DNA of 40,390 nucleotides from Acidobacteriaceae bacterium. GTDB lineage: Bacteria; Acidobacteriota; Terriglobia; Bryobacterales; Bryobacteraceae. The notes below the pieces were generated by a model. It was not told the origin of the DNA. It made no database searches and was given only the letters and a program-made list of their open reading frames with translations. Below, piece by piece: positions 2,079 through 17,861 of the stretch; position 1 is the first letter of the stretch, and every line of letters begins with the position of its first letter. Both the position numbers and the translations under genes were made by a program. The stretch spans positions 1-40,390 of the forward strand of contig JAFATG010000047.1 in assembly GCA_019244055.1 (NCBI GenBank), in the 5' to 3' direction.

Positions 2079-4718
2079 CTAACCGCCGCTTTGTTGAAGA
2101 AGCTTAGCGGCAACGCCGGTCCATCCGGTCTGGTGACTGGCGCCGAGGCCTTTACCCGTGTCGCCGTCGAAATATTCGTAAAAGAGCGGGTAACAGCGAA
2201 AATTGGGATCGTTCTGGAATAGAATATTACCGTCGTATTCGGGACGATGGCCGTTGGCGTCGGGCAAGAAAAGCGATGACAGGCGAAGCGAGAGCTGCCG
2301 CGCGGCTTGATCCAGAGTGATCCGCTTGCCGGAGCGCGCTGGAAATTCGACGGTAAAGGATTCGCCGAAGTAATGCTGGAGTCGCTGCAGTGCTTCGATG
2401 AGCAGGAAATTCCCCGGGAACCAGACAGGCCCGCGCCAATTTGAGTTTCCACCGAAAAGACCAGTCGTGGATTCACCGGGCTCGTAGTCCACTTGGAACC
2501 TGGCGCCATCAACCTCCAGCGTGTAAGGATGCTCTTTGTGAAAGCGCGAGAGGGAACGAACCCCAAAAGGCGATAGAAATTCGTTCTCATCAAAGACGCG
2601 TTGGAGTATGCGCTCTAACCGCGGACGATTCACTACGGACAGTAGGCGGCGCTCCTCGATTCCGCAAAGGGTCATGGACGCGAGACCCGATGTGAGATCA
2701 GGCCGATTATCAATGAACCATTCCATCCGCTTCTTGAAACCGGGATGTTTCTCGACGGTATAGGCGTCGAGTGTGTCTGTTGCAAACAGCGGGACAAGAC
2801 CGACCAGGGAACGCACTCTGAGGGATCGGTATTTATCATCCCCCAAACGCAGCCGGTCATAATAAAACCCGTCCTCTTCATCCCACAGACCCGTCCCTTT
2901 AGAGTGGTTGACCGCATAGGAGATGTAGAGAAAGTGTTCGAAGAACTTGCTGGCGATGTCCTCGTAAGTCACGTCGACAGTGGCAAGGTGTAGCGCGATC
3001 TTCAGCATGTTCAGGCAATACATCGCCATCCAACTCGTGCCATCGGATTGCTCGAGCATCCAACCGTACGGCAAGACGGTATTGCGATCGAAGATGCCGA
3101 TGTTATCGAGCCCAAGAAAGCCGCCTTCAAAGATGTTGGCATCGGAGGAGTCCTTGCGGTTCACCCACCAGGTGAAGTTCATCAGGAGCTTGAGAAACAC
3201 GCGTTCGAGGAACTCATAATCGGCGCGTCCTTTAATGCGCTGGTCGATCTTGAAGACGCGCCAGGCGGCCCAGGCATGAACAGGTGGATTCACGTCGCCA
3301 AAAGCCCATTCGTAGGCGGGGATTTGCCCGTTCGGATGCATGTACCATTCGCGCAAGAAAAGCGAGAGCTGAGCTTTGGGAAAGTCGGGATCAGCGGGCG
3401 CAATGGCGACGGCATGAAACGCCAGATCCCAGGCGGCGTACCATGGGTACTCCCATTTATCGGGCATAGAAATAACATCTTCGTTGAAAAGATGCCGCCA
3501 CTTGTGATCGCGGCCCTCTTTGCGCTGTTCCGGAGGTTTAGGCATGGTATTGTCGCCCTCCAGCCAGGTTTCCACTACGAAGTGGTAATACTGCTTGGTC
3601 CAGAACATGCCCGCAAAGGCTTGCCGTTGCACTTGGCGCGCTTCGTCGGAGAGGCCTTGGGAGAGACGGGCGTAGAATTCGGACGCCTCACGGATTCGAT
3701 CGTCGAAAATGCCGGGCCAGAGCTCACTGCGGATTTCGGGCAAACCGGCACGTGACAAACGAAAGTACAGGGCTGCTTGGTCGCGAGGACCGAGAGAAAG
3801 AGAATAGACAGCGCAGGCCTTGGTGCCCAGGTGCTGCGGATTCACTGCGTTCTGACGGCCGTCGATCAAATAGTCGTGAAAAGCATCCTTATAGAAGGTG
3901 TTCTGACCCTTCCAGTTCCAAAGGCGCTCAGTGTTGCTTTCGTTCTCAGTGAAGAGAAGATCAGGGGTTCCCTGCAGAGCAAGAGTGAAGCGGCCAAGAG
4001 TAGGATGGTCGGCTTCGATCTGTGTGGCTTCGGATTGAAACAGCCGCGGCTTTTGAGCGGGATCGTAATTTTTATCCCAATCCCAGATGTTACGGAACCA
4101 AAGTGTCGGAAGAAGGATTAGCTGCGCCGAATCTGGACCGCGGTTTGCGACAGTTATGCGGATCAGGATGTCATCGACATCATTCTTCGCGTACTCGGCG
4201 AATACATCAAAATACCGGCTTTCATTGAAGATGCCCGTATCCTCAATTTCAAACTCCGGATCCTGACGCGTGCGCTTACGGTTCTCTTCCTGGAGCCGTT
4301 CGTATGGATAAGCGGCTTGCGGATACTTGTAAAGGCCCTTCAGGTAGGAGTTAGTGGGTGTCGCATCGAGGTAGTAGTAAATCTCCTTGACATCCTCACC
4401 GTGGTTGCCCTGCGGACCCGTGAGGCCGTAGAGGCGCTCTTTCAGAATGCAATCCTTTCCATTCCACATTGCAAGCGCGAAGCAAAGATATTGATGGTTA
4501 TCGCAGATGCCCAGAATGCCGTCTTCGGTCCAGCGATAGACACGGGAGCGGGCGTGATCGTGCGGAAAGAATTCCCAGGCGTCGCCGTTTGAACTATAGT
4601 CCTCGCGAACGGTTCCCCAGGCGCGCTCAGCCAGATAGGGGCCCCAACGTTTCCAGTGCTTTTTTCGCGCTTCCGCTTCCGCTAACCGCTGCTGCTCTGC
4701 CGTAGTTGTAGCGCGCAT
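2079..4718 (-). CDS. GH63/MGH1-like glucosidase (processing glucosidase-like)
   Basis: This 879-residue protein belongs to the (alpha/alpha)6-barrel glycoside hydrolases related to GH63 mannosyl-oligosaccharide glucosidase and mannosylglycerate hydrolase. It probably cleaves alpha-glucosides or glucosylglycerate-type compatible solutes; the exact substrate is not resolved. An N-terminal beta-sandwich carries [19 protein letters not shown] around residues 94-112. The catalytic barrel has [17 protein letters not shown] around residues 425-441 (Asp431 is the likely acid) and [16 protein letters not shown] around 466-481. Further on are [26 protein letters not shown] and a C-terminal [21 protein letters not shown]. 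There is no signal peptide, so it should be cytoplasmic. I start it at ATG 4718 ([16 protein letters not shown]) because family homology begins there; the frame stays open upstream into an Mrr remnant (see pseudogene entry). No strong Shine-Dalgarno precedes this ATG, so the start is not certain. Confidence 0.85.
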
Positions 4719-4774
4719 ATGCAAGTATTCCAGTGTACGCGGGAAAGAGCGAGTCTCAGACCAGAGTGAAAGTG

Positions 4775-5040
4775 CTATGCGGCGGCTTTTTCGTCCTCCG
4801 CAGACGGCAAAAGGCGACCGTCTACGCCACCTGTGGAGGCTTGTTGTTTGCGGAGCTTGGCTGAATGCATGAGAACCAACCATTCGTGACGCTCTTGCTG
4901 ACGATTTTGGCGGGCTTCGCGGCGGGCCGGCTCCTTCAAAGGTCGTTATCGGAAGTGCCCGGGCGTCCCACTTTCTACCGTGCTTGAGTACTGCCGCGCC
5001 CGCCCACTTCGGATTAACGCTAATGGTTTCTGGTCCGGAG
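4775..5040 (-). pseudogene. Possible frameshifted remnant between the Mrr remnant and the glucosidase
   Basis: The 300-nt stretch between the recognisable Mrr domain and the glucosidase is Arg/Ser/Pro-rich and unlike either in the frame that joins them. A coding-like string, [17 protein letters not shown], is in the Mrr frame. A second one, [19 protein letters not shown] followed by [12 protein letters not shown] and ending in EDEKAAA at a TAG (4775-4777), is in another frame. Together they suggest a short gene broken by a frameshift, or simple read-through of non-coding DNA. I do not recognise a family, and confidence is low. Confidence 0.25.
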
Positions 5041-5456
5041 CCGCTGGGCGATAATGATGACGCTTTCAAATCTCCGACGTCGTCGGCGGCTTCATCTGGT
5101 TTGTGTTCCGCTCGACCTCTTTCCCTGAATTGCTGAAACTCGTTGAACTGCGCGAGTAAAGTGTTGTCGATGTGATCAGGGCGCGTATCGAGTACCTGTC
5201 TGCCACGGGCCGTGATTTTGAAGTGACCGCGCCGGGTGTTCTCAAGTAAACCCGCTTGCGCCATGTAAGTCTTGGCCCAGTGCACTCGATTGCTGAAGGT
5301 GGTTTGCCTGCCAGAAGGTAGCAATTCGCTGCGTTCTTCAGGAGTAAGCCCTAATTTTTTGGCCAATTCTTCAACGGCTGCACTGATGCGAACCTCTCCG
5401 TTTGAAGCGAAGAGCAGAACAGGCAACATCAGGGATTGATAGTCAGGGATGGGCAT
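5041..5456 (-). pseudogene. mrr: Truncated Mrr-type restriction endonuclease (N-terminal winged-helix domain only)
   Basis: From ATG 5456 the protein begins [18 protein letters not shown] and continues with [37 protein letters not shown] and [11 protein letters not shown]. This is the N-terminal (Mrr_N) winged-helix DNA-recognition domain of Mrr/type IV restriction endonucleases, about residues 1-100, followed by the usual charged linker ([19 protein letters not shown]). The catalytic PD-(D/E)xK domain, which should follow with its QAKRW-type motif, is absent. Family resemblance stops around codon 135 (near 5050). The frame then happens to stay open into the glucosidase, so a naive gene call gives a 1125-residue fusion. 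A truncated Mrr is the simplest reading; a real fusion with a regulatory winged helix cannot be excluded. Confidence 0.7.
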
Positions 5457-11694: not shown

Positions 11695-12661
11695 CAGCTT
11701 TCGCTGTAAAACTGTTCTCACGAGAGAGCTGCTGGCAGCGCTTGCCATTTGCATTTTGCCGGTTTGCGCGCATGCGCAATTTCGCGCCGACACCAGGTTG
11801 GTCGTCTTGCACGCAAGCGTCACCGATAAGAGAGGCAAACTGCTGACCAACCTAAATCGGGATGCGTTCAAAGTATATGAGAACGGACAACTTCAGCAGG
11901 TCAAGGTTTTCCGACGAGAGGACGTGCCGGTATCGCTCGGGATCATTATTGACGATAGCGGCAGCATGGCTACGAAGCGCGCTCGGGTAGAAGCGGCGTC
12001 TCTGGCCATGGTCCGTGAATCGAACCCGCAGGACGAAGTGTTCATCGTAAACTTCAACGACGAGCCATTCCTCGATGTGCCGTTCACCAATGACATTCAC
12101 AAACTGGAACAGGGGCTGGCGCGTATCGATTCGCGAGGCGGAACGGCCATGCGCGATGCCATCAGCAGTTCACTCGATTACATGAAACAGAAAGCCAAAA
12201 AGGACAAGAAGGTCCTGATGGTGATAACCGACGGTAACGACAACGCCAGCAATATCTCCCTTGAAAAAGTAGTGGCGAGATCAAACCAGAGTGACACGCT
12301 GGTCTATGCGATCGGGTTGTTTACCGAAGAGGAGCGCCACGAGGCAACTAAGGCGCGCCGGGCTTTGAACGAACTCACTGGAGCCACAGGCGGCCTGGCC
12401 TTTTACCCGAAAGAAGTGGCCGAGGTCCAGTCGTTGGCAGTGGAGGTGGCACACGATATTCGCAGCCAGTACACGATCGCGTATAGCCCAAGCATTCAAC
12501 AGCTCGACGGCAGCTACCGCCAGATCAAGGTCACGGTCAGTGCGCCAGGTAAGCCTGTCGTGCGAACTCGGTCCGGTTACTACGCTACTCCGGACGTAGA
12601 GCGGTCGAAGCAGGTGAATGCCAATGCGACTACGACGGTCGCGTCCGTGCCGCAGCCTTGA
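11678..12661 (+). CDS. Secreted VWA-domain protein 2
   Basis: This 327-residue paralogue of the preceding protein has an N-terminal signal (LAALAICILPVCAHAQF). The strand region is RLVVLHASVTDKRGKLLTNL. The VWA domain has MIDAS residues in DDSGSMATK, GGTAMRDAIS and ITDGNDNASN, and the C-terminus is SQYTIAYSPSIQQLDGSYRQ followed by RSGYYATPD. The ATG lies 17 nt inside the upstream gene, so the two are almost certainly translationally coupled. Two different VWA proteins made in step could form a heteromeric surface assembly (inference). The last base of its TGA stop is the first base of the ATG of the small downstream gene. Confidence 0.93.
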   Translation: MHRPISSFRCKTVLTRELLAALAICILPVCAHAQFRADTRLVVLHASVTDKRGKLLTNLNRDAFKVYENGQLQQVKVFRREDVPVSLGIIIDDSGSMATKRARVEAASLAMVRESNPQDEVFIVNFNDEPFLDVPFTNDIHKLEQGLARIDSRGGTAMRDAISSSLDYMKQKAKKDKKVLMVITDGNDNASNISLEKVVARSNQSDTLVYAIGLFTEEERHEATKARRALNELTGATGGLAFYPKEVAEVQSLAVEVAHDIRSQYTIAYSPSIQQLDGSYRQIKVTVSAPGKPVVRTRSGYYATPDVERSKQVNANATTTVASVPQP

Positions 12662-12858
12662 TGCTTAAGTTTCTATGGATAGCCACCAGAGGCTATCGTT
12701 TTCGGCCCTGGGAATCGCCTTACCTGCGCTGGCGGATAGAAACGTATTCCGGAATACCCGCCGATTCGATCACACGGGAATCGTTTTTTCACTTCATCTG
12801 GGCTGAGCGCCACTCGTTGTGGCAGTACCTCCGATGGGTTGCCCGGATGAGCGGCTGA
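12661..12858 (+). CDS. Small basic/aromatic protein coupled to the VWA pair, 65 residues
   Basis: The ATG shares its A with the stop of the VWA gene (TGATG), a classic coupling arrangement. The product begins MLKFLWIATRGYRFRPW and continues with SPYLRWRIETYSGIPAD and a C-terminal AERHSLWQYLRWVARM. It is rich in Trp, Arg and Tyr, with repeated aromatic-Leu-Arg-Trp motifs (YLRW twice). I recall similar short acidobacterial hypotheticals with this RxSPYLRWRIETY core, but I cannot name a family. There is no transmembrane helix or signal peptide. Its last 65 nt overlap the 3' end of the convergent rhamnosidase gene. The function is unknown. Confidence 0.6.
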   Translation: MLKFLWIATRGYRFRPWESPYLRWRIETYSGIPADSITRESFFHFIWAERHSLWQYLRWVARMSG

Positions 12859-15526
12859 CCACATTATTCGGCGCGGCTGGCTCCGTGCGCTCTCCAACTC
12901 GAAAAACGTAGTCCCCCGATCCGATATCGCACACAACGTCGTCCTCAAGCATGTGAACGTTCGAAACACCATTTCCGCCAATTTGCGGTTTGCTCGAACG
13001 GTACAGCGGAGTGCCGGTCTCACTGATTTCGGGGTCCGCCAGTTTTAGAAGCTGGAAATGGACGGAGGCCGTTGCGCCAACCGGAACAGTGACTTTCAAC
13101 TCATAGCCGGGACCGATGCGGCGCCAGGCACTGGATACGCCACCTCGGACCGTTTCCGTTGAGGCCGAAACCCAGTTGAGGCCATGGACAAGTTCTGGCT
13201 GAATGCGGATGGTTGAGTAGCCGAGTCCCTCGCCGCGATTTATGCCGGCAAGGACATTGAATAGAAACGTCCCCGCGCTGGCGAACATGTGGTGGTTATG
13301 TGAGTTCATCTCGGGTCCGGTCCGGTCCTGCCAAAGCTCCCACAGCGTGGTCGCTCCGTGGGAAAGCATGAAACCGTAACCCGGGTAATCGGGCTGAGTA
13401 AGAACCTCAAAGGCAAGGTCGGCATGGCCACGCGAAGCAAGCACAGGAAATAGATATTTGGTTCCGAGAATGCCTGTCGTGAGGTGGACGTTGTGGTAGT
13501 AATTGACATCGTCCAGCAAGCGGGACATTGTTTCGCCTTCCTCTCGTCCGGGAATCACGTGTGCATTTAACGCGAGTACCTGTGCGGCCTGCGAGCCGGA
13601 TCCATACACCCCTTCTGGACTGCGCCATTTGCGATTGAAGGCCTCGCGCGCCATGGTCGCGAGATCACGATACTGTTTGGCTTCATCTTCTTTGCCGAGG
13701 ACATCGGCAGCCATCGCGACTATATCGAGAGCCTTTATATATGCCCAAGTACCCGCCAGCAGTTTGGGCGTGGCATCGATGCCGACCCAATCGCCAAAAT
13801 ACGAATAATCGACCGTGCCGTCCGGAGCATGGCGATGGAGGAAATCGGCCCATGCTTTGATGCCCTCATAATGCTGCTGGACGATGCGCTTGTCGGCGTA
13901 ATTTCGGTACAGGTATTGGACGAGTAACGGATATGCAAGACCCCACGAGGGATCGCCCACGCGATTCTTGTTAAAGCGCTCGATAAAGGGAACGATATTC
14001 GGGACTTCGCCCTGGCTGCCTTGCGCGTCGCGAATGTCGCGCAGAAAGTTCGTGTAGAACGCGGCCATATCGAAGTTCAGAATGGCTGTTTCGGCCGACA
14101 GATGCGCGTCACCCATCCAGCCAAGGCGCTCGTCGCGCTGATCGCAGTCGGTCGGCACGCTGGCCAAATTGGTTTTTATGCTCCAGATAAACATGTGCTG
14201 AATGGCGTTAAGCATCGGGTCGGATGAAGCAAAATTCCCAATAGTCTCAACGGCGGTATGCACTTCACGGCCGCGGACGGAATCGAGAGAGGGCACGGAA
14301 GGGAAGCCGCTCAGCTCGACGTAACGGAAACCGTGATAGGTGAAGTGAGCCTCATATTCCTCGCCGTTTGGGTCGCCCCGAAGGATGTAAGTGTCAGTCG
14401 AACGAGCGCTGCGCAGATTGTCAAGCATGACGGAGCCATCCGGGTTGACCAACTCGGCGTAACGGATCTGGACGCGCGTTCCCGCAGGGCCGTGGACCTT
14501 GATCTTCGCCCAACCGCTGAAATTCTGTTCGAAATCGTAGACGTAGATGCCGGGAGAGGATTCAGTCATTTTGCGAGGCACGAGCGTATCCATTATTTGA
14601 ATCGCGGGCATCATTTGGGAGGAGAGAGTGACACCCGGCAAATCGACTACGCTGACAGGCTGGCCCGCGTCACGTTCGGCCGGCTCCGTCTCGAGCCGCG
14701 CATCATAAGTCTCGCCGTCATAGATATCGTCCAGGGTGATCGGGCTCTTATAAGCGCGCCAGTTCTCGTCCGATGTGAAGAGAAACGGTTTGCCGTTTTC
14801 GTATTCGCCTTGAATCTGGCAAATTAACTTGGGTGCTTGCCTCAAGATTTTCCCGTACCATGCCCGACCTACGAGCACGCGTAACGTGTTCCCGCCCGAA
14901 TGGAGCTGTTTGGTGACGTCGTAGGCGGAATAGAGGACGCGCTTTGAATAATCTGTCCAGGCAGGATCGAGCACGTGGTCGCCGATCCGATAGTCATTGA
15001 TGTGAAATTCGTAATAGCCGGACGCGGCAACAAAAAGGCGAGCGCGCTTGACGGGCTTGCTCAGTGTAATGAAATCCCGAAGCAGACCGCTGCCGGTGAT
15101 CCACTTGGCTTTCCAATCGGAGGACTGAAGCATGCCCGTGCTGAACTCAGCTGTGTCACTCCAGGGGCTCTCTGCCCCATTCGCGTCGCGAAACCGGACC
15201 CTCCAGAGGTAAGTCGTGTCGGAAGCGAGCGGTGGTCCTTTGTACTCAACCTGGAATGTGTCGGGAGTGTTGACTTCGCCTGAATTCCAAACCACTCCCT
15301 TAAACCTGGCGTCGCGGCTGACCTGAAGCTCGTACGACGTTTGGTGTTGGCTCCGATCGGTATGGTTCAGAACCCAGGCGAAGCGCGGAACGGCCACGTC
15401 GATAGCTGTAGGGTTCTGAAGGTATTCGCAACGCAGGTGTGTCGGGGCAAGTGGGCCAGACCAGAGCGAAGAGGCGCCGAGAAACGAAAAAAGGAACGTC
15501 GCAGGGACAGGAAAGTAGCTGCGCAA
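12794..15526 (-). CDS. Secreted GH78 alpha-L-rhamnosidase
   Basis: This 910-residue exported enzyme hydrolyses terminal alpha-L-rhamnose from plant pectin side chains, flavonoid glycosides or bacterial polysaccharide. A signal peptide (ATFLFSFLGASSLWSG, residues 9-24) precedes a fibronectin-like domain starting APTHLRCEYL and the rhamnosidase N domain (RLFVAASGYYEFHIND, around 163). The concanavalin-like domain has DFEQNFSGWAKI around 331. The (alpha/alpha)6 barrel carries VPTDCDQRDERLGWMGDAH (residues 457-475), with Glu466 the expected general acid. The likely base Glu is in ATTLWELWQDRTG, and NSHNHHMFAS follows. The start is TTG at 15526, supported by AGGAGG 8 nt upstream; that AGGAGG is buried in a perfect hairpin (see regulatory entry). 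The gene is 55 nt downstream of the sigma/anti-sigma/secreted-protein genes and may be co-transcribed. Confidence 0.95.
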   Translation of the reverse strand: MRSYFPVPATFLFSFLGASSLWSGPLAPTHLRCEYLQNPTAIDVAVPRFAWVLNHTDRSQHQTSYELQVSRDARFKGVVWNSGEVNTPDTFQVEYKGPPLASDTTYLWRVRFRDANGAESPWSDTAEFSTGMLQSSDWKAKWITGSGLLRDFITLSKPVKRARLFVAASGYYEFHINDYRIGDHVLDPAWTDYSKRVLYSAYDVTKQLHSGGNTLRVLVGRAWYGKILRQAPKLICQIQGEYENGKPFLFTSDENWRAYKSPITLDDIYDGETYDARLETEPAERDAGQPVSVVDLPGVTLSSQMMPAIQIMDTLVPRKMTESSPGIYVYDFEQNFSGWAKIKVHGPAGTRVQIRYAELVNPDGSVMLDNLRSARSTDTYILRGDPNGEEYEAHFTYHGFRYVELSGFPSVPSLDSVRGREVHTAVETIGNFASSDPMLNAIQHMFIWSIKTNLASVPTDCDQRDERLGWMGDAHLSAETAILNFDMAAFYTNFLRDIRDAQGSQGEVPNIVPFIERFNKNRVGDPSWGLAYPLLVQYLYRNYADKRIVQQHYEGIKAWADFLHRHAPDGTVDYSYFGDWVGIDATPKLLAGTWAYIKALDIVAMAADVLGKEDEAKQYRDLATMAREAFNRKWRSPEGVYGSGSQAAQVLALNAHVIPGREEGETMSRLLDDVNYYHNVHLTTGILGTKYLFPVLASRGHADLAFEVLTQPDYPGYGFMLSHGATTLWELWQDRTGPEMNSHNHHMFASAGTFLFNVLAGINRGEGLGYSTIRIQPELVHGLNWVSASTETVRGGVSSAWRRIGPGYELKVTVPVGATASVHFQLLKLADPEISETGTPLYRSSKPQIGGNGVSNVHMLEDDVVCDIGSGDYVFRVGERTEPAAPNNVVSRSSGQPIGGTATTSGAQPR

Positions 15527-15529
15527 AGA

Positions 15530-15561
15530 AAGATCCTCCTGAGGATTGTCAGGAGGATCTT
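15530..15561 (-). promoter_or_regulatory. Perfect 13-bp hairpin that sequesters the rhamnosidase Shine-Dalgarno
   Basis: Read on the minus strand, AAGATCCTCCTGA, a 6-nt loop CAATCC and TCAGGAGGATCTT form a stem without mismatch. The right arm contains AGGAGG (15540-15535), spaced 8 nt from the TTG start of the rhamnosidase. The left arm contains its exact complement CCTCCT, acting as an anti-Shine-Dalgarno. The stem is followed by TTTCTTT, so it could also act as a weak intrinsic terminator for the gene upstream. Both readings make it a control point between 15582-16397 and the rhamnosidase. Confidence 0.75.
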
Positions 15562-15581
15562 ACTACAGGTTTCGCGAAATG

Positions 15582-16397
15582 CTACTCCTGCGGAGGTCCG
15601 GGCGGAGGGGGACCGCCGGGGCCACCTGGTCCACGAAAATTTGGGACATCGCGTACGCTGTACCCTTGCGGAATTTGAAATAGCGAGGGATCGGGATTGC
15701 CGCGTTGAATATTGGTTAACGTGTAGGTCGATTCACCAATGCGCGGATCGGTATGAACCGATTTCACGGCGACTTGGAGCTCGGGAGAATACCACGTCTC
15801 GGTCTTGGAAACCAACGGCATGGTGTTTCCGATGGCGCCCGCCTGAATGGTTCGCGTAATGCTCTTGCCCTGGGCAGTCACACCGCCAACGGATTGAATA
15901 CCCAAATCCGTTTCGACCACGGTCGCATTGTTACCCTCAGGATGCCGCGGCATATCAGATCGTGCCTGACCGGCCGGTGGCGCCTTAAATGGGTGTTTGG
16001 TGGCGGTATGCTCGCTCGTATGCAAAGTGTAAGCGTAGCCCGCAACAGGATCTGTGATGAAGATCAGAGTAGTTGGCGCGCTCGTGAAAGGACCTTGCCT
16101 GATATTTTCCTGAACATAAGTGCGTCCCTGGGCATCACGGGCAACCCTGCCGGTCGTGGTGCGCTGAATCGTATTGCCGTCGGCTAAGGTTTGCACGAGA
16201 GTGTTGGTGATGTCGGCCGAATACGGCGCGCCGGTGACCACTTTCATTAGCGATCTACCAATTCCCATGCCGGGGCCTTCCATCCCCCGATGCGGCGGCA
16301 TCATGGGGGGCGGCCCTTCCGGCGGTGTCACCGCCGTTTGCCCGAACGCAAAGCCAGCGAACAGGAAAACTAACAGTAGCGAGGTACTTCGTTTCAT
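15582..16397 (-). CDS. Secreted protein with Pro/Gly-rich tail, sigma-factor-operon partner
   Basis: This 271-residue protein has an N-terminal signal peptide (LLLVFLFAGFAFGQT), a Pro-rich spacer (PPEGPPPMMPPHRGM), a central domain of about 190 residues, and a disordered tail GPGGPGGPPPPGPP. The central part has beta-like features: LVQTLADGNTIQRTTTGRVA, RDAQGRTYVQENIR and VAGYAYTLHTSEHTATKHP, then KTETWYSPELQVAVKSVHTD and YTLTNIQRGNPDPSLFQIP. A GAGGAG lies 6 nt before the ATG. I know this architecture from acidobacterial operons next to anti-sigma factors, but no function is established. Its place 49 nt after the anti-sigma gene suggests a member of the regulon, perhaps an envelope sensor or structural protein (inference). 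Confidence 0.85.
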   Translation of the reverse strand: MKRSTSLLLVFLFAGFAFGQTAVTPPEGPPPMMPPHRGMEGPGMGIGRSLMKVVTGAPYSADITNTLVQTLADGNTIQRTTTGRVARDAQGRTYVQENIRQGPFTSAPTTLIFITDPVAGYAYTLHTSEHTATKHPFKAPPAGQARSDMPRHPEGNNATVVETDLGIQSVGGVTAQGKSITRTIQAGAIGNTMPLVSKTETWYSPELQVAVKSVHTDPRIGESTYTLTNIQRGNPDPSLFQIPQGYSVRDVPNFRGPGGPGGPPPPGPPQE

Positions 16398-16446: not shown

Positions 16447-17073
16447 TTAATCGAGGCTCACAACGTGGACACCTAGCGGCTGCCCATCCATTCCGAATAG
16501 GACATCGGCAAGAACGGACCGATCCATTCCCTGAGCGCCATTCGAGACGGGTTCGAAGGTGATTCCAGCAGCAGCAAGAGAGCCTACCGGCACCTGCATC
16601 TGAACGATATGAGGAGCGGCCGTCGAAAGGTCAGGATTGGAATAAGGCAGCAGAATAAAATTCTCTCCATCAACTTCGAACATGCCGCTCTGGACTTGCG
16701 CCACCGTGTTACCGGCCGGCTTTACCGGATGAATCCAGCGCGGTAACAGGACCGCCATTAGCGCCAGGCTGGCCGCCAGTGCCATTGTCCAACCGAAACC
16801 GAGAGCGAGTCTGGATGAGCGGCGTGCGAGCGATGAGCGCGCCTGGGTTTCTAGCTTATGGGCAAGAGCCTGGCGCTGAGCGGCAGCGGGCCCGGCCGCC
16901 GTGGCGACGAGCGATTCGATTTTTCCCGAAAGGAAACGAAACTCAGCCGAGCGGCCCTTACATGCCTCGCAAACGCGCAGATGCGGGTCTATGACCTCGG
17001 CTTCCTCGGGAGTGAGTTCATCATCGAGAGCCCTGATCAACAGGTCATTTGTTAAGTGATCAGGAGTGTTCAT
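16447..17073 (-). CDS. Transmembrane anti-sigma factor with zinc-finger motif
   Basis: This 208-residue protein holds its partner ECF sigma factor inactive at the membrane. The N-terminal anti-sigma domain has the zinc-binding HLRVCEACKG (His-x3-Cys-x2-Cys, residues 32-39), preceded by the acidic helix LDDELTPEEAEVIDPH. A single transmembrane helix (WTMALAASLALMAVLLPRWI, around residues 94-113) leads to an extracytoplasmic domain of about 95 residues that presumably senses the signal. Its ATG overlaps the sigma factor stop by 4 nt (ATGA), which ensures equal synthesis. Confidence 0.93.
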   Translation of the reverse strand: MNTPDHLTNDLLIRALDDELTPEEAEVIDPHLRVCEACKGRSAEFRFLSGKIESLVATAAGPAAAQRQALAHKLETQARSSLARRSSRLALGFGWTMALAASLALMAVLLPRWIHPVKPAGNTVAQVQSGMFEVDGENFILLPYSNPDLSTAAPHIVQMQVPVGSLAAAGITFEPVSNGAQGMDRSVLADVLFGMDGQPLGVHVVSLD

Positions 17074-17630
17074 AACAGTTCCTTTAATTTCTCCAGGCCG
17101 CGCTGGATGTTCTCGCCGACAGTGGATGTGGAAAGGTTCAACACGTCGGCGATTTCACGATATTTAAGGCCTTGTGACCGAAGAACGAGGCAGTCCCGTT
17201 GCGCCGGGCTCAAGGCCTGAATGGCGCTGTTCATGAGGTCGAGGCGTTCCCGCGCCAGGAGATCCTGCTCCGCCGAATTGGAGCGGGCCGGAGGATCGCC
17301 TGCCAGCGTCACATCAGCCAAAAAATCCGTCCTGCTCGAGCGGAAAGCCGATTGCGAATTACGCGCCAGATTGTGAGCCACACGATAAAGCCAGGCGCGA
17401 AGATTTGTCCGGTCCCCTCGAGCGAGGAGGTGCTCTTGCAGTTTCAAAAAGCATTCCTGCACGATTTCAAACGCAGTTTCCGGGTCGATACCAAGGAACG
17501 CAACGTAACGCCGGAGCGAGAGTTGTTCCCGGTCGTACTGCTCAAGAATCAGCCGCTGAACAGAAGTATCTTCCAGTAGATCTGTTTCCCACACCGCGCC
17601 CGCCATTGCGAGATTTCCCACGGATTCCAT
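17070..17630 (-). CDS. ECF-type RNA polymerase sigma factor
   Basis: This 186-residue sigma-70 family protein lacks region 1 and 3, as ECF factors do. Region 2 spans about residues 35-95, with GIDPETAFEIVQECFLKLQE and the promoter-melting segment NLRAWLYRVAHNLARN. Region 4 covers about 130-186, with ALSPAQRDCLVLRSQGLKYR and the helix-turn-helix EIADVLNLSTSTVGENIQRG. The C-terminus ends in a plain LEKLKELL. The first-gene position before its cognate anti-sigma factor, overlapping it by 4 nt, is standard. It should control its own operon, possibly through to the rhamnosidase. The start is ATG 17630; ATG 17606 is an alternative with the signature intact. Confidence 0.95.
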   Translation of the reverse strand: MESVGNLAMAGAVWETDLLEDTSVQRLILEQYDREQLSLRRYVAFLGIDPETAFEIVQECFLKLQEHLLARGDRTNLRAWLYRVAHNLARNSQSAFRSSRTDFLADVTLAGDPPARSNSAEQDLLARERLDLMNSAIQALSPAQRDCLVLRSQGLKYREIADVLNLSTSTVGENIQRGLEKLKELL

Positions 17631-17689
17631 GACTATCCCACAATAATTGAGGAACTCCCAGCCAATCTAAGCCGTGCAAAAACAGCGAG

Positions 17690-17748
17690 GGCCACAAGAG
17701 AGTTTTTGGGGGAGTTGCACTTGGGGTTGGGATTACTCTCCTGTGGCC
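17690..17748. repeat. Long imperfect inverted repeat in the sigma/DinB intergenic region
   Basis: Arms GGCCACAAGAGAGT (17690-17703) and ACTCTCCTGTGGCC (17735-17748) pair at 13 of 14 positions around a 31-nt G-rich loop. They lie between the divergent sigma factor and DinB-like genes. This could be an operator, a folded leader or a degenerate mobile-repeat unit. The remainder of 17631-17861 shows nothing clear. Confidence 0.5.
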
Positions 17749-17861
17749 TGGCGTCTCGCATGCTAGGTGCCTATGAAACAGTCGGGAATTAGTGTTTTCC
17801 GGCTGAGCGGGGGAAAAATAGCGCTGCAGGGTGCAGCAGGCATTGCTAGTCTGGATAAATT

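Follow-up and report, generated by a model that had tools for sequence, protein, structure and literature searches.

A GH78 alpha-L-rhamnosidase gene follows a sigma/anti-sigma operon in the window, by which we mean the whole stretch of DNA that was analysed (40,390 nucleotides), and its Shine-Dalgarno (SD) sequence lies in a hairpin between the two. This raises the question of whether the hairpin serves the operon that ends there, the gene that begins there, or both. The order of the genes can be read directly from the DNA:

17070 to 17630, minus strand: ECF-type sigma factor (domain match)
16447 to 17073, minus strand: zf-HC2 (anti-sigma-like) protein (domain match)
15582 to 16397, minus strand: 271-aa protein, last gene of the sigma operon, with its stop codon 20 nt before the stem
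12794 to 15526, minus strand: GH78 alpha-L-rhamnosidase, whose N-terminus by eye resembles a signal peptide

The 271-aa protein had no Pfam or NCBIfam match at E 0.001. For GH78 the best named match was a contig labelled Bryobacteraceae (L036, 74 percent), and the matches of L036 are the same as those of G014. Besides, a 66-aa open reading frame at 12658-12858 on the plus strand overlaps the 3' end of GH78 on the opposite strand, and by eye a coding sequence like it seems to be convergent to the operon in relatives. Elsewhere in the window, 2079-5456 on the minus strand encodes a 1125-aa protein of which the N-terminal 137 residues match a model of a type IV methyl-directed restriction enzyme (PDLC03657, E 2.4e-21).

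The original prediction described a perfect hairpin that carries the SD sequence AGGAGG in one arm, 8 nt ahead of a TTG start codon, and the exact anti-SD CCTCCT in the other. All of this was recovered on the minus strand by sequence and RNA folding, with 13 uninterrupted base pairs, a loop of 6 nt and the SD at 15540-15535:

15562 to 15568, minus strand: conserved flank CTGTAGT, directly 5' of the stem
15549 to 15561, minus strand: 5' arm AAGATCCTCCTGA with the anti-SD CCTCCT (sequence and RNA folding)
15543 to 15548, minus strand: loop CAATCC, variable in length and sequence in relatives
15530 to 15542, minus strand: 3' arm TCAGGAGGATCTT with the SD (sequence and RNA folding)
15535 to 15540, minus strand: SD sequence AGGAGG of GH78, which is GGGAGG in G001 and G015
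15524 to 15533, minus strand: U-rich tract TCTTTCTTTG, which overlaps the stem base and includes the start codon
15524 to 15526, minus strand: TTG start codon, retained wherever a gene stands behind the hairpin (six genomes)

The TTG also holds as the start codon, being the sole in-frame ATG, GTG or TTG from the preceding in-frame stop to codon 44 of GH78. The tail, proposed as TTTCTTT, stood only in part, since two of its T's pair at the stem base and the unpaired tail is TCTTTG. A rule that counts stem-base pairs as tail accepted this U-rich stretch and the rule of a simple terminator scan rejected it; the site was not listed by that scan, presumably because of the two paired T's. The 76-nt stretch around the hairpin had a folding z-score of -6.17, and none of 200 shuffles was equally stable. 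In a region of 131 nt the best and centroid folds contained no alternative structure. The hairpin is the single such site in its genome with up to three mismatches allowed. A sample of 570,747 bases of the genome contained seven perfect hairpins of at least 10 bp, two of them of at least 13 bp; this sample (40 stretches and the window) is not random, because 16 of the 40 stretches sit on contigs matched by earlier searches.

In the main fold the SD is paired, a state that according to folding and alignment is conserved among relatives. The stem over the SD was calculated at -17 to -23 kcal/mol across the genomes, with about -21 kcal/mol in the window, and at 37 C the modelled SD was open to 0.01 percent in six genomes and to 0.28 percent in the seventh. 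An RNA thermometer had been named as one possible switch, and the location of the SD within the stem would suit it. However, over a modelled range of 20 to 75 C the open fraction of the SD, taken at 75 C, did not exceed 0.4 percent in six genomes and was 3.4 percent in G006; the thermometer claim did not survive this, and we regard such a mechanism as extremely improbable. A leader peptide that would end at TAGTAA or within the stem was also considered and rejected, as the frames open ahead of TAG and TGA vary in length and in start across the seven genomes, and several of these lack a start codon. In Rfam no match to the hairpin region reached its gathering score; the stretch 15480-15640 gave seven sub-threshold matches with E-values up to 5, the best of them by E-value being ar14 with 21.7 bits versus 58.8.

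The locus was then compared within the genus, whose genomes are drafts of uneven completeness (55 percent for G015), so that absence from any one of them is weak evidence. The 271-aa gene adjoins the anti-sigma gene in 15 of the 17 genus genomes searched; G008 has no match to the protein, and G004 has a weaker match without these neighbours. The sigma gene was seen at 13 of the 15 loci, the remaining two being cut short or without a match. GH78 comes next at five loci (G000, G001, G002, G005 and G014). All five genomes with this complete gene order, the window's genome counted, retain the stem over the SD, which strengthens the original prediction. They all have CTGTAGTAAGATCCTCCTGA, a loop that varies, an arm with the SD (GGGAGG in G001) and a TTG inside the U tract. 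Of the six hairpins that have a gene behind them, five contain CTGTAGTAAGATCCTCCTGA unchanged, and in that of G001 it carries a 2-nt insertion within its first six letters.

A covariance model of the hairpin (R1, seven sequences) matched 7 of the 17 genus genomes and none of the 220 other genomes of the family, in searches (100, then 237 genomes) whose filters can drop weak matches. The E-values of R1, and of the model R2 described below, are rough, and the model sequences came from 7 R1-matched and 13 R2-matched genomes. All seven matches among the 237 family genomes lie at the sigma-operon locus, with weak second matches on the reverse strand of the same palindrome, and no wider regulon appeared in either search. 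Similarly, a 17-mer search allowing up to three mismatches gave 92 matches in the 17 genus genomes, the seven loci included, versus 84 for a reversed control. Upstream of GH78, an SD hairpin was found at one of 79 distinct loci outside the genus (L082, with unlike sequence) versus four of four inside, and a stem of some kind with at least 9 pairs at 25 of 83 loci; this survey omitted loci in which less than 220 nt preceded the match or the match began beyond residue 60.

Five of the seven genomes have GH78 behind the hairpin, one has an L-rhamnose-isomerase-like gene and one has no GH78 at the locus. The second case is G006, which has no GH78 match at E 1e-50; its hairpin is followed by a gene that matches TIGR02635 (E 1.8e-150) with 501.1 bits, short of the cut-off of 531.35. 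The first start codon in frame with this gene is the TTG of the U tract, and the next one is codon 55. Its first two codons, TTG CGT (gene at L122:1550-2743), resemble the GH78 start in G000 and G014. The 14 other genus genomes with a match to the L-rhamnose-isomerase-like gene carry it on a different contig than the operon or, in G004, have no operon, and the hairpin motif was not found upstream of any of these 14 genes (12-mer, up to three mismatches, up to 400 nt). The third case, G015, has no GH78 match; it keeps the hairpin, followed by a 15-codon open reading frame, perhaps a remnant, and by convergent VWA genes. Moreover, G010, a sister of G001 without GH78 at the locus, carries AAAAGCTCCTGAACG..CGTTCAGGAGCTTTT (L018:1410-1475, minus strand), which could be the same hairpin 3 nt shorter on both arms. 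As to a single origin of the hairpin on the sigma/anti-sigma/271-aa tree, a tree that groups the seven genomes was rejected (p-AU 5.45e-07), but gains and losses are not countable, because just 2 of the 12 inner branches are well supported.

In the alignment of the seven sequences, 95.6 percent of the cells are paired. Sliding the partner by 1 to 3 columns lowered this to 42-59 percent, although such a control is biased towards any structure that was derived from the sequences themselves. The search for compensatory changes, suggested as a check on the stem, gave a thin result: a single double change in seven sequences, the outer A-U pair having become G-C in G015, which has no GH78, and this count was reached by 74 of 500 shuffles. 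The covariation of the hairpin is weak. Changes are more frequent in the 3' arm than in the 5' arm: G001 has an A-to-G change, G005 has two from T to C and G006 has lost 3 nt, none of them answered in the 5' arm. The 5' arm and the unpaired CTGTAGT flank are conserved beyond the needs of pairing, and of 209 four-fold sites in GH78 just 7 are invariant across the five GH78 genomes. The pattern of conservation thus argues for the stem and, in addition, for a further constraint on the 5' part, unpaired CTGTAGT included. A hairpin that acts as a lock on the SD and nothing more accounts poorly for this pattern and for G006, with its shortened 3' arm and unchanged 5' arm.

A different reading would make the inverted repeat a DNA operator for a dimeric regulator. 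A perfect 13-6-13 repeat across a possible -10 element would fit this, but the spacer varies from 6 to about 19 nt, two genomes retain a stem pair as U-G and the genome holds no second site within three mismatches. We therefore consider an operator very unlikely.

What the position after the 271-aa gene has in common within the genus is a tendency towards terminators. Under one rule, a terminator-like hairpin was found within 90 nt after the 271-aa gene at 9 of the 15 genus loci. Five of these are the hairpin itself, those in G007, G009 and G012 are unlike it by eye, and the one in G010 is maybe a diverged copy. The other six loci do not pass. In G006 and G015 the hairpin itself is present but has a long loop or a mismatch; G011 and G013 form stems of 13 and 12 pairs that are followed by too few T's; G003 and G016 have no stem of 8 pairs under the rule, although by eye G016 contains a long palindrome whose loop is large. 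Applied to the genome sample, the same rule passed 5 of 468 genes, the 271-aa gene among the five, and 1 of 468 shuffles; the genes were uncurated greedy open reading frames of at least 100 aa and the shuffles mononucleotide. Nine of 15 loci versus 5 of 468 genes suggests that a terminator-like hairpin, of whatever sequence, tends to occupy this position. The earlier idea of attenuation gains from this in its terminator part, as four of the eight genus loci without the hairpin and GH78 have terminator-like hairpins in the same place.

These counts would also be expected of a plain terminator with an SD in its arm that is used since read-through or other transcripts suffice, the stem having no role for GH78. 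Four of the nine passing loci have something other than the hairpin itself, and G015 keeps the hairpin without GH78. However, unlike stems occupy the same place in relatives, and still the letters are nearly frozen where a gene follows the hairpin; a stem of the calculated stability over an SD is also unlikely to be neutral for translation. We judge a plain terminator unlikely.

It is somewhat probable, in our view, that the hairpin is a terminator that doubles as the initiation region of the next gene and blocks run-in transcription. As the intrinsic terminator of the sigma/anti-sigma/271-aa operon, it would stop most operon transcription at the U tract. Its 3' half would be where translation of the next gene is initiated, with the SD in the 3' arm and the TTG in the U tract. 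On run-through transcripts the stem would cover the SD, and such RNA should hardly be translated. With operon transcripts stopped and run-through RNA hardly translated, GH78 would be insulated twice from the sigma operon. We infer from the sequences that termination occurs here, that read-through is silent and where the GH78 transcript starts. Several points speak against a terminator that is also an initiation region: the U tract is both short and interrupted, the site is missing from the output of the simple terminator scan, and G006, G015 and four of the eight loci without the hairpin and GH78 fail the terminator-like rule. Furthermore, the 271-aa stop codon is close enough to the stem that ribosomes there may lower termination; excerpts of a study in an E. 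coli system describe termination as lowered by a nearby stop codon and near maximal beyond 30 bp (PMC4824070).

The same proximity underlies another explanation, translational coupling, in which ribosomes finishing the 271-aa gene would hold the stem open, so that transcription reads into GH78 and the gene is translated along with the operon. In the five GH78 loci, 20 to 44 nt separate the stop codon from the beginning of the stem, and the lowered termination near stop codons in the excerpted E. coli work (PMC4824070) would agree with coupling. Yet those excerpts place near-maximal termination beyond 30 bp, the distance at this locus is not conserved, and the stem can refold after the ribosome has left. 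Coupling appears to us quite unlikely.

If the hairpin both terminates the operon and hides the SD, GH78 would most simply be translated from RNAs that begin inside the hairpin, at about 15550, without the anti-SD. Two candidate elements for such a start lie in the 5' arm:

15557 to 15562, minus strand: -10-like TAAGAT, a putative element without a consistent -35
15549 to 15550, minus strand: candidate transcription start omitting CCTCCT, proposed from spacing

TAAGAT (15562-15557) is present in each of the six genomes where a gene stands behind the hairpin, reads TGAGAT in G015, and is a fair candidate for the -10 of the next gene. A start 7 nt beyond it would be G15550, which omits exactly CCTCCT, and such an RNA is predicted to fold weakly (-3.7 kcal/mol for 30 nt). 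In the model, the SD was open with a probability of 0.0001 in the full stretch versus 0.30 in an RNA starting at 15551. For such inner-start RNAs the value was 0.11 to 0.30 in six genomes and 0.83 in G006. Against an inner start, the SD is thus open to a small degree in six genomes, a consensus promoter scan found no promoter at the hairpin, and no consistent -35 is present: at spacers of 16-18 the best matches were 2 to 4 of 6 positions against null means of 2.1 to 2.5, with no two genomes agreeing. Sigma-70 and GGAA-type -35 elements were rejected as candidates; the best scores were 4 of 6, in G006 and G005 but at -10 positions that differ, and 4 of 5 for AGAAA in G005. A transcription start between 15550 and 15530, which the original prediction named as a possible refutation, is thus conceivable, and one for GH78 at about 15550 is possible but doubtful. 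We are just as tentative about the more complete proposal of a single 45-nt cassette that joins the terminator of the sigma operon with the promoter core, SD and start codon of the next gene, and in which run-in RNA is both ended and silent. By its geometry, good translation would arise solely from RNA started inside the hairpin. The L-rhamnose-isomerase-like gene of G006 suggests that the cassette may be able to serve another gene.

The constraint on the 5' part would also be explained by a regulated attenuator, in which a protein, a small RNA or another ligand on the conserved CTGTAGTAAGATCC side prevents the hairpin and thereby causes antitermination and frees the SD at once. Conservation of the 5' arm and unpaired flank past the pairing requirement is in line with this, and both kinds of gene behind the hairpin are rhamnose genes. 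Control at both steps is described, in the part of the source at hand, for tlrB of Bacillus subtilis (PMC6851288). On the other hand, the folds of the 131-nt region contain no alternative structure, neither a conserved leader peptide nor an Rfam match at gathering score was found, and the motif was not found ahead of the other 14 rhaI genes in the genus or among the other family genomes searched. A regulated attenuator is rather unlikely on balance, if still worth considering.

A terminator that doubles as an initiation region resembles several known systems. Like intrinsic (Rho-independent) terminators, the hairpin combines a stem with a U-rich tract after a last gene, and similar hairpins stand there in several relatives; it differs in having a short U tract and in providing, with its 3' arm and U tract, the SD and start codon of the gene that follows. 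With SD-sequestering hairpins of translation attenuation it shares an exact anti-SD paired to the SD and a predicted SD access near zero, but here no alternative open form or leader peptide was found, and the stem bears a terminator-like tail. Some riboswitch terminators have been described as overlapping the SD. In the tlrB (yxjB) leader of B. subtilis, termination and SD hiding likewise precede one gene; as far as the excerpts of that study go, a terminator and a separate SD-sequestering hairpin are governed by a ribosome stalled on a leader peptide (PMC6851288), whereas the GH78 locus has one hairpin and no conserved leader peptide. Among the literature matches listed, judged by title and opening of the abstract, no report was found of one hairpin serving as intergenic terminator and as the SD of the next gene, and one may still be in print; a literature search on RNA motifs in Acidobacteria gave no match. 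The arrangement is real, conserved and uncommon, and is built from known parts.

A separate feature became apparent at the other end of the operon:

17684 to 17762, minus strand: conserved structured leader upstream of the ECF sigma gene

Across 13 genus members, 13 of its 21 predicted pairs show at least one compensatory double change, and both a bulge (ACGGCA in most) and a loop around CAACCCCAAGTGCAACTCC are conserved. The sigma leader is strongly covarying. No Rfam family matched it up to E 5. Its covariance model R2 matched 14 of the 17 genus genomes in a search of 100 genomes, including G015, which is not a model sequence (E 6.4e-19); the sole match outside the genus was weak (G020, E 0.02). 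Directly 5' of the leader lies a promoter-like CCGGAAAA-N13-CTGTT (17777-17802, minus strand), with similar letters in aligned genus members, possibly the ECF factor's own promoter. This leader merits a separate study, perhaps more than the hairpin does.

If our reading of the hairpin as both terminator and initiation region is true, it would represent a compact form of insulation from a neighbouring operon, in which one hairpin ends the upstream transcript and hides the start codon region on any RNA that escapes. Moreover, the retention, loss and reuse of the hairpin within the genus would allow natural variants to separate its role in termination from its role in translation.
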